Positions 13,197-23,541 of a stretch of DNA of 34,076 nt are shown here, piece after piece. The notes under the pieces were generated by a model that was given only the letters and a program-made list of their open reading frames with translations, ran no database searches and was not told the DNA's origin. The position numbers and the translations under genes were made by a program. The DNA lies in the IMG/VR virus record IMGVR_UViG_3300022933_000014, positions 1-34,076 of that record. One strand, given 5' to 3'. Within the stretch, counting starts at the first letter, position 1. The number at the start of each line of letters is the position of its first letter. Source of the DNA: a virus.

Positions 13197-13303
13197 ACAC
13201 AGTCTCCTACAGACTCAAACCTTCTGCGTAACTCTTCCAGTTTGTTTAATATCTTTTTGGTGGTTTCTTTCCTTTCTTCATTTTTATTTTCCTCGTTAGT
13301 CAT
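13193..13303 (-). CDS. Small charged helical protein, 36 aa
   Basis: A 36-residue reading frame, very rich in Lys, Glu and Arg (MTNEENKNEERKETTKK, then ILNKLEELRRRFESVGDCV). It should be a single amphipathic or coiled-coil helix. It is tied to its neighbours on both sides: TAATG with the upstream gene at 13303 and ATGA with the downstream gene at 13196. This double coupling is the main support for it being real. Function unknown. Confidence 0.6.
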   Translation of the reverse strand: MTNEENKNEERKETTKKILNKLEELRRRFESVGDCV

Positions 13304-13461
13304 TAAATTTTCTCGCATCGTTGTATTCGTAAAAATCCCAAATCTATAATAAAATAATTAAATTTGCTAGTGCGATTATCTTCATAGTATGGGTCTAACT
13401 TATCAGCTTCATACCATTCAAACCCAAAGTGACAACCACAGAACCAGTGCCATGACCACAT
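13303..13461 (-). CDS. First late gene, small aromatic protein, 52 aa
   Basis: A small protein with an unusual aromatic and Cys/His-rich N-terminus (MWSWHWFCGCHFGFEWYEAD) and a hydrophobic C-terminus (FNYFIIDLGFLRIQRC). The CGCH cluster could bind metal. AGGA lies 11 bases before the ATG at 13461; an alternative ATG at 13473 sits directly on the AGG and is less likely. It is the first gene after the intrinsic terminator at 13483-13510, so its transcription probably depends on antitermination of the late promoter. Confidence 0.62.
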   Translation of the reverse strand: MWSWHWFCGCHFGFEWYEADKLDPYYEDNRTSKFNYFIIDLGFLRIQRCEKI

Positions 13462-13482: not shown

Positions 13483-13510
13483 AAAAAAAATGCCACCGAT
13501 TAAAGTGGCA
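13483..13510 (-). terminator. Intrinsic terminator between early left operon and late genes
   Basis: On the minus strand TGCCAC (13510-13505) pairs with GTGGCA (13496-13491) across an eight-base loop and is followed directly by eight T residues (13490-13483). This is a canonical rho-independent terminator. It closes both the left early operon and the short leader described at 13483-13554, and separates them from the late genes. Confidence 0.9.
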
Positions 13511-13554
13511 TTACAAAGGAGTGTGAGAAAGTTCAAGACGAACTTATCCCAACC
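13483..13554 (-). ncRNA. Putative short leader RNA (lambda 6S-like)
   Basis: Between a promoter (13560-13588) and the intrinsic terminator lies a transcript of about 70 nt. Its first hairpin is AAGTTC / GAACTT with a five-base loop (13529-13545). A single-stranded stretch containing ACACTCCTTTGTAAT follows, then the terminator hairpin. In layout it matches the lambda 6S RNA between pR' and tR', read through when Q acts. The middle segment is complementary to the recurrent AACAAAGGAG ribosome-binding motif of this phage. The start point is predicted from the -10 box; the RNA itself is inferred. Confidence 0.55.
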
Positions 13555-13559
13555 CTCCG

Positions 13560-13588
13560 ATTATAACAAAAAATTCTCTATGAGACAA
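13560..13588 (-). promoter_or_regulatory. Candidate late promoter (pR'-like)
   Basis: On the minus strand TTGTCT (13588-13583) and TATAAT (13565-13560) are separated by 17 bases, giving a near-consensus sigma-70 promoter with a perfect -10 box. It overlaps the end of a 26-codon gene. Transcription would start near 13554, run into the terminator at 13483-13510, and with antitermination enter the late genes. A GATAAG element at 13548-13543, resembling a -10 box, could cause promoter-proximal pausing as at lambda pR'. Confidence 0.6.
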
Positions 13589-13971: not shown

Positions 13972-13985
13972 GTTTTTCTCCTTTG

Positions 13986-14339: not shown

Positions 14340-14355
14340 TTTTGTTACTCCTTTG

Positions 14356-14613: not shown

Positions 14614-14711
14614 TAGTTAAAGTCTCCTTTGATTATTCTGACTGTTCTCCATAATACAACTAGTGCTATAGCAACCCAAATAAAAGCACCAGTAGGGTTA
14701 TACTTTTTCAT
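14613..14711 (-). CDS. Small single-span membrane protein, 32 aa
   Basis: MKKYNPTGAFIWVAIALVVL is followed by WRTVRIIKGDFN, a single membrane helix with a positive N-terminus and a basic C-terminal tail. AACAAAGGAG lies six bases before the ATG. It is the first gene behind the promoter at 14750-14777 and is coupled to the next gene by TAATG. Role unknown. Confidence 0.65.
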   Translation of the reverse strand: MKKYNPTGAFIWVAIALVVLWRTVRIIKGDFN

Positions 14712-14749
14712 AACTGTCTCCTTTGTTGGTTAATCAAAACTACATATAC

Positions 14750-18031: not shown

Positions 18032-18054
18032 TACTTTCTCCTTTGTATTTTTAT

Positions 18055-18377: not shown

Positions 18378-18407
18378 GGTGTTATCTTAATAACAAAGGA
18401 GATAAAA

Positions 18408-18572
18408 ATGGAACAACAAGTAATGGAAGAAGCAAGTCAAATATTTGCAATAAATACTTTTTCAGATATTATCTTGGACTCTGGAGCTCATTCAGTTCTA
18501 GGTATGATTAAACAAATTAACCCAGATGCTTACCAAGAATTAGTTATGGCATCTAAAACAAAGGAGATATAA
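18408..18572 (+). CDS. Small early protein, 54 aa
   Basis: First gene behind the rightward promoter. The ATG at 18408 has AAAGGAG six bases upstream; an earlier in-frame ATG at 18369 lies within the -10 region and cannot be the start. The protein is acidic and helical (MEQQVMEEASQIFAINTFSD, ending ELVMASKTKEI). No family recognised. Its stop is next to the ribosome-binding site of the annealing-protein gene. Confidence 0.68.
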   Translation: MEQQVMEEASQIFAINTFSDIILDSGAHSVLGMIKQINPDAYQELVMASKTKEI

Positions 18573-20771: not shown

Positions 20772-20895
20772 AGAACAATGGAAAGAACATAAATATATAT
20801 GGGAAGGATATACATATTTTTTAATGAGTAAAGGAAAAGAATTTCATATTGTTTATGAACCTACAGGAAAGATTGTTACAAAGGGGGAGTTATGA
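20737..20895 (+). CDS. Small basic early protein, 52 aa
   Basis: Lys-rich protein (MEKGKETLKKNKEQWKEHKY, then IWEGYTYFLMSKGKEFHIVY). AAGGA lies 11 bases before the ATG. The start lies within the zinc-finger-like gene and the stop overlaps the next gene as ATGA, so coupling is probable. Unknown function. Confidence 0.52.
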   Translation: MEKGKETLKKNKEQWKEHKYIWEGYTYFLMSKGKEFHIVYEPTGKIVTKGEL

Positions 20896-21314
20896 AATAC
20901 GAAAAATTAAAAAATCAAACTAATCTACATTGGTATAATTTAAAAGATGGCAGGAAATTACAAAGATTTCAAATATCAGAAATGATTTATGCTTTGTTTG
21001 ATGGAGGAAAGGAATTGACTATTCAAGATGTAGCAGAAAATGTTGGAATAGAAGAAACTACATCAGCTCATATTATTAGAAGTTTATGTATTAAAGATTT
21101 ATTAGTAAGAAGAAAAACTCAAAGAAACACTGTATATTCCAAGAAGATTGATTGTGCATTAGCTACAATGTTTTACCCAAAAGAAATACTAGACAACTTC
21201 AAAGTTAAAAGTAAAAAATCTCATAAGATGGATGATGGAAAAAATGTTTCATACCCACAAGCTACCCCTCATATGTATGGATGTGTAAACACTATTTATG
21301 AAGGTGGTGAGTGA
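20892..21314 (+). CDS. Winged-helix transcription-regulator-like protein, 140 aa
   Basis: Residues 27-75 read FQISEMIYALFDGGKELTIQ, DVAENVGIEETTSAHIIRSL and CIKDLLVRRKTQRNTVYSKK: a helix-turn-helix followed by a beta wing, as in MarR/IclR-like winged-helix domains. The last 50 residues are basic with a Tyr/His-rich tail. It starts in an ATGA overlap with a good GGGGGAG site and is followed directly by the Q-like gene, so it may be part of the late-switch control. Confidence 0.68.
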   Translation: MKYEKLKNQTNLHWYNLKDGRKLQRFQISEMIYALFDGGKELTIQDVAENVGIEETTSAHIIRSLCIKDLLVRRKTQRNTVYSKKIDCALATMFYPKEILDNFKVKSKKSHKMDDGKNVSYPQATPHMYGCVNTIYEGGE

Positions 21315-21641: not shown

Positions 21642-21659
21642 AGAGAGCCGAAGCTCTCT
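21642..21659. terminator. Bidirectional intrinsic terminator
   Basis: AGAGAGC (21642-21648) pairs with GCTCTCT (21653-21659) around CGAA. It is flanked by seven A residues on the left and AATTTTT on the right, so it works as an intrinsic terminator in both directions. It separates the Q-like gene (plus) from the convergent accessory unit (minus). Confidence 0.88.
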
Positions 21660-22358: not shown

Positions 22359-22392
22359 GTATTTGTAGGTTAAATAACAAAGGAGAAAAATA

Positions 22393-22862: not shown

Positions 22863-22896
22863 ATGTATGTAGGGTTAATAACAAAGGAGACAAGAG

Positions 22897-23180: not shown

Positions 23181-23199
23181 TTAACAAAGGAGAGTAGAT

Positions 23200-23516: not shown

Positions 23517-23541
23517 AAGCTCCTCAAAAGGGAGCTTTTTT
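23517..23541 (+). terminator. Intrinsic terminator of the rightward accessory unit
   Basis: AAGCTCC (23517-23523) pairs with GGAGCTT (23531-23537) over a seven-base loop, followed by TTTT to 23541. It lies at the convergence with the end of the late operon, whose last gene stops at 23540. On the minus strand only a short A-tract-derived T run would follow, so it is probably less efficient for late transcripts. Confidence 0.82.

Follow-up and report, generated by a model that had tools for sequence, protein, structure and literature searches.

A probable Q-type late-gene switch with a leader complementary to early-gene Shine-Dalgarno sequences in a family of marine and freshwater phages

In the window, i.e. 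the whole analyzed stretch of 34,076 nucleotides, a compact module precedes the late genes on the minus strand. An extended -10 promoter is followed by a leader of ~41 nt, a strong intrinsic terminator and the late operon. We consider it very probable that this module is a Q-type late-gene antitermination switch. Its leader carries the segment CUCCUUUG, whose complement CAAAGGAG serves as the Shine-Dalgarno sequence for ten early genes in the window but for none of the late genes. With somewhat less than even confidence we therefore propose that the "off" RNA of the switch regulates these about ten early genes by CUCCUUUG/CAAAGGAG pairing, which would tie early shut-off to the late promoter. 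All features are listed in Table 1.

The late promoter is composed of TTGTCT (13588-13583), a spacer of 17 nt and an extended -10 element (TGT-TATAAT, hexamer at 13565-13560), with a predicted transcription start at ~13553. An earlier note on this DNA had described the TTGTCT-17-TATAAT arrangement and direct reading confirmed it. Promoter consensus scans alone were uninformative, with 57 promoter-like sites in the window compared to 58.7 expected. Between 11 and 24 kb, the only match with a TG extension and at least 10 of 12 promoter bases was the late promoter itself. The combination of a 10-of-12 promoter with a terminator 15–90 nt downstream occurred once in the real window and in none of 100 dinucleotide shuffles, which thus gave no comparable promoter-terminator pair. 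A 26-codon ORF, MELIFDVWAAIGLFALIACLIENFLL (13641-13561, minus strand), has its stop codon inside the -10 hexamer, and a related short ORF is located at the same position in several relatives.

The terminator consists of a stem of 9 pairs, a 6-nt loop and a U8 tail. In the alignment of relatives, both-sided changes were found at 2 of the 9 pairs, at one of them in 12 of 27 sequences. The leader with one hairpin, the intrinsic terminator and the first late gene at 13461 were all present as the earlier note had stated, and so was the Q-like ORF in the right early operon. Further terminator-like stems are located between convergent gene blocks at 21642-21659 and 23517-23537; the former reads as a terminator on both strands.

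The same note had suggested that GATAAG just after the start could pause RNA polymerase. A -10-like pause element is indeed present in the initially transcribed region by sequence and conservation, and GATAAG turned out to be a portion of a longer conserved element, TTGGGATAA-TTCGYC. Its role in pausing is a prediction from these letters.

Table 1. Features of the putative late switch and its predicted targets in the window
Feature	Position	Strand	Basis
Late promoter	13560..13588	-	-35 TTG and -10 kept in 25 distinct window-type sequences
Leader hairpin 1 (GGAG..CUCC base, AAGUUC/GAACUU arm, 5-nt loop)	13518..13558	-	single-sequence folds
TTGGGATAAGTTCG, sigma-dependent-pause-like element (TGn-GATAAG), about +2 to +15	13539..13552	-	conserved in window-type, D and E lineages
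ACUCCUUUGU, predicted pairing segment to early-gene Shine-Dalgarno	13513..13522	-	conservation, complementarity tests
Intrinsic terminator (tR'-like), stem 13512-13489 and U tail	13483..13512	-	sequence reading; paired changes in relatives
First late-operon gene, 52 aa, no function assigned	13303..13461	-	ORF reading
Q-like antiterminator candidate, 108 aa	21311..21637	+	homologues directly upstream of module in freshwater relatives
Predicted target CAAAGGAG, early gene starting 13971	13978..13985	-	complementarity
Predicted target CAAAGGAG, early gene starting 14339	14348..14355	-	complementarity
Predicted target CAAAGGAG, early gene starting 14613	14624..14631	-	complementarity
Predicted target CAAAGGAG, small early ORF starting 14711	14718..14725	-	complementarity
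Predicted target CAAAGGAG, replication initiation gene starting 18031	18038..18045	-	C kept in 20/20 homologues
Predicted target CAAAGGAG, early gene starting 18408	18394..18401	+	C kept in 17/17 homologues
Predicted target CAAAGGAG, early recombination-region gene starting 18573	18559..18566	+	complementarity
Predicted target CAAAGGAG, early gene starting 22393	22378..22385	+	complementarity
Predicted target CAAAGGAG, small ORF starting 22899	22882..22889	+	complementarity
Predicted target CAAAGGAG, early gene starting 23200	23185..23192	+	complementarity

Conservation in relatives is a stronger test of the module than the chance level in shuffles. Searches with TerL and the Q-like protein yielded 160 IMG/VR loci, and a blastn search using 221 bases that surround the switch returned 24 different sequences, the window among them. 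In all 24 the -10, the leader and the terminator were kept. Since several of them carried unrelated sequence further upstream, it is the module and not its neighbourhood that is conserved.

MW202481 (phage ctXG6705) and the L150 type were reached through a search in which the seed of the leaders was masked. With the Q homologue of MW202481 as query, 80 further IMG/VR loci were obtained, resulting in a set of 81 freshwater loci (E-type) with a Q-like gene close to that of ctXG6705. Here, the order was Q, promoter TTGACA/TATAAT, a pause-like element TTGGGATA..TCGYCC, leader, terminator and late genes. The stop codon of Q was located inside the -35 TTGACA in 81 of 81 loci. The order of TATAAT, TTGG(G)ATA..TCGYCC, leader and terminator was read in 80 of them, the remaining locus stopping at the contig end. 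Among 43 distinct E-type sequences, the initially transcribed region (+2 to +18) had a mean majority identity of 0.92 and the promoter spacer of 0.60. The pause-like element starts at +2 in these loci, which is the position of the annotated sigma-dependent pause element in phage 21. The lambda-like late switch, which the earlier note had inferred for one genome, is thereby supported by Q stopping inside TTGACA ahead of the same module.

The L150 type showed this order as well. In EBPR podovirus 1 (L376, 1840-1966), a distant homologue of Q is succeeded by TTGACA, a less distinct -10, a leader rich in GC and, ahead of TerS, a terminator. In lineages B and C (L058 4190-4270, L224 and L047 1000-1070), the late genes are preceded by a promoter-hairpin-terminator module, and no Q of the window's family was detected; the gene immediately upstream of the module in lineage B resembles a small winged-helix protein. 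The isolated OM43 phage Venkman (L001) carries a Q homologue with 71% identity, annotated as "antitermination-like", though the module was not found in it. Several dozen copies of GTTTAAACA are present in Venkman, some directly before early start codons (e.g. GGAGTGTTTAAACATG). They were considered as Venkman's equivalent motif and rejected, as no matching leader was found there. A TerL scan of genome contigs gave no host or prophage link.

The Q-like gene of the window is part of the right early operon and lies ~8 kb from the module. Family searches with its product gave no relevant match. Among 28 homologues, weak matches to sigma region 4 were found in 10 and to Phage_antitermQ (PF06530) in 5, and no match reached a curated cut-off. 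Profile comparison (hhalign) with nine 21Q/QuuD-type proteins aligned the N-terminal W..W region with an E value of 8e-4 at a probability of only 24%. The AlphaFold model had a pLDDT of 79; searched against the PDB it returned nothing significant, with weak sigma-region-4 matches, and a PDB sequence search with the Q profile gave repeat-protein and other irrelevant matches only. For comparison, 21Q has a sigma-region-4-like fold (PMC6606751). The product is thus best called a Q-type candidate whose resemblance to known Q families appears weak. In the -35/-10 spacer (identity 0.60) no conserved Q-binding element was found and no direct repeat could be established. Immediately before the Q-like gene, a predicted winged-helix protein with only weak matches to transcription regulators is encoded at 20892-21314.

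Based on these parts, host RNA polymerase would start at ~13553 and probably pause over TTGGGATAAGTTCG. Without a phage factor, transcription would end at the terminator (13483) and an RNA of ~70 nt would be released. The Q-like protein, presumably made late in the right early operon, would load on the paused polymerase, and read-through into the minus-strand late operon would follow, a Q-dependent step expected to depend on TTGGGATAAG. Taken together, the parts, their order, the chance level, the conservation and the adjacency of Q and module in relatives make the lambda-type reading well supported. The strongest support for the comparison with lambda comes from the module order in the freshwater relatives together with the same order in phage 21. 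What weighs against the switch are the weak family matches of the Q-like protein, its distance from the module in the window, the spacer without a recognised Q-binding element, lineages B and C with a similar module but no detected Q, and Venkman, where Q was found but the module was not.

In single-sequence folds of the leader, a single hairpin closed by a loop of 5 nt is connected through a short linker to the terminator hairpin. The region of hairpin 1 was paired in most relatives despite sequence change, and RNAalifold did not recover hairpin 1 as a consensus helix. An Rfam search gave nothing above a gathering score. CUCCUUUG is partly unpaired and was identical in 24 of 24 leaders found by blastn, all of which contained ACUCCUUUG or GCUCCUUUG. 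As several other leader sets were found by a pattern requiring CTCCTTTG, invariance is claimed from the blastn set and the seed-masked search only. CUCC..GUA is shared by the leaders of lineages D and E, and part of this element may therefore serve a different function.

Either the terminated RNA or the leader carried on late mRNA may pair via CUCCUUUG with CAAAGGAG of early genes and thereby lower their translation. In window-type relatives, complementarity to the leader of at least 9 nt was found in 19% of 390 early genes and in none of 166 late genes. Complementarity between leaders and genes of different lineages was 0–1%, except for B genes with the C leader (2.6%). Lineage B has a different matched pair, the linker AUCUUCUCCU and AGGAGAAGAU, with 11% of 117 early genes matched versus 0 of 57; between lineages A and B, a change in the RNA segment would have been accompanied by one in the early motif. 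No such complementarity of leader and early genes was found in lineage C. A compensatory seed in lineage E (leader GTCTCCT, Shine-Dalgarno GGAGACT) proved negative (p = 0.66). For MW202481 the test with its own leader was weak (4/31 vs 1/35), and the D leader scored better there.

The C preceding AAAGGAG tracks the lineages with a window-type leader (66% vs 0–25% elsewhere). It was present in 75 of 114 cases (66%) at a Q identity of 76–92%, in 23 of 46 at 61–69% and in 4 of 23 at 52–60%; among the relatives in the last range, the window-type leader was not found. Lineage E had it in 15 of 60 cases, and B, C and other TerL relatives together in 1 of 29. The simple script used for gene calling favoured start codons preceded by a Shine-Dalgarno sequence, and related contigs are only partly independent. 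As a guard against this, protein families were counted: C was in the majority in 53 of 99 families (p = 1.6e-13, compared to 0.2). Some families always kept the C (20/20, 17/17, 13/13) and others never (12/12 with A).

Duplex energies were better for early than for late genes with the leader, but also with the 16S tail, and early genes have stronger Shine-Dalgarno sequences in general. Energy alone is therefore not diagnostic and the argument rests on the flanking C. Of 84,980 species genomes, only 17 had a 16S tail ending in CUCCUUUG, and Methylophilales appeared in none of their titles; this tail is so rare that ribosome pairing does not explain the C. The rarity of this tail also argues against the CAAAGGAG context being a preference of host translation. 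Nevertheless, we give an even chance to the possibility that this context reflects such a preference, or a recombination linker of early cassettes, and is unrelated to the leader. The motif often follows TAA, as TAAC-AAAGGAG, and no match to the leader emerged in lineages E and C. On the other hand, late genes of the same phages are without the motif and sister phages with Q but without a window-type leader lack it. In conclusion, regulation of early genes by the leader is plausible from correlations, with two lineages in favour.

Three other readings concern the switch itself. That the terminated leader acts mainly in trans, as an sRNA repressing early genes, with incidental or leaky read-through, appears improbable to us. 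It would fit the invariant, partly unpaired CUCCUUUG, the complementarity confined to early genes, the C before AAAGGAG in 53 of 99 gene families, the tracking of the leader lineage by this C and the second matched pair in lineage B. However, it leaves unexplained why the module stands before the whole late operon and why the Q stop overlaps it in relatives, and in the E lineage, which has the module, no early genes are clearly matched. A plain promoter next to an ordinary terminator of the early left operon, without antitermination and with leaky termination or other promoters serving the late genes, is very improbable. It is true that the early minus-strand operon ends at the terminator and that consensus scans alone were uninformative; yet promoter, pause element and terminator stay together across great divergence, in many relatives directly behind Q. 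Equally remote is control of read-through by the leader RNA instead of Q, be it put-like as in HK022 or a riboswitch. A structured leader, and lineages B and C without a detected Q of the window's family, would be in line with it. However, no Rfam match came up to the gathering score, the hairpin sequence of the leader differs between lineages while the pause-like element is kept, and constitutive put action would leave the conserved terminator pointless. Furthermore, put is a conserved two-stem cis RNA acting without a protein, whereas here, judging from leader folds and the comparison of lineages, the hairpin sequence varies and the second stem is a terminator.

The preferred Q-type switch can be compared with several known systems. 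Lambda pR'-6S-tR' with Q shares with the window the promoter, the early pause element, the short terminated RNA, the terminator and the late operon, as well as a right early operon that ends with Q. In contrast to lambda, the Q protein of the window is unrelated and encoded ~8 kb away, a Q-binding element was not recognised in the spacer, and the leader carries a conserved segment complementary to early genes. As in the window's relatives, phage 21 Q lies immediately upstream of TTGACA at pR'21, with the pause element from +2; its sigma-region-4-like Q has weak profile similarity to the window-type Q. However, the phage 21 leader is almost entirely terminator, and its direct-repeat Q-binding element was not seen here. 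AlpA of Pseudomonas aeruginosa binds in a promoter and enables polymerase to read through a terminator located right before the operon (PMC7969949); it is an unrelated protein and not a phage late switch.

With respect to the leader, the nearest report found was that of StxS, an sRNA of Stx phages which derives from the pR'-tR' transcript and binds a ribosome-binding site (PMC7873438, PMC12197685). By its architecture, the window would likewise yield a short transcript bounded by late promoter and terminator. StxS acts on a toxin gene and on rpoS, repressing stx1B and activating rpoS, whereas the predicted targets of the window RNA are about ten of the phage's own early genes, reached via one shared motif. 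New here is the complementarity of the leader to early-gene Shine-Dalgarno sequences, possibly a variant of the late switch with a regulatory RNA.

No mention of antitermination was found in the examined literature on OM43 phages. The module would act as a conserved switch that turns late genes on or off throughout a large family of phages from marine and fresh waters. Lambda-type late control would thus be documented in a family with an isolated relative, Venkman, that has OM43 methylotrophs as hosts. In the freshwater relatives, the Q gene overlaps its own putative target promoter. If true, the pairing of leader and early genes would offer one function for a lambda 6S-like RNA and would couple early shut-off to late switching in a simple way.
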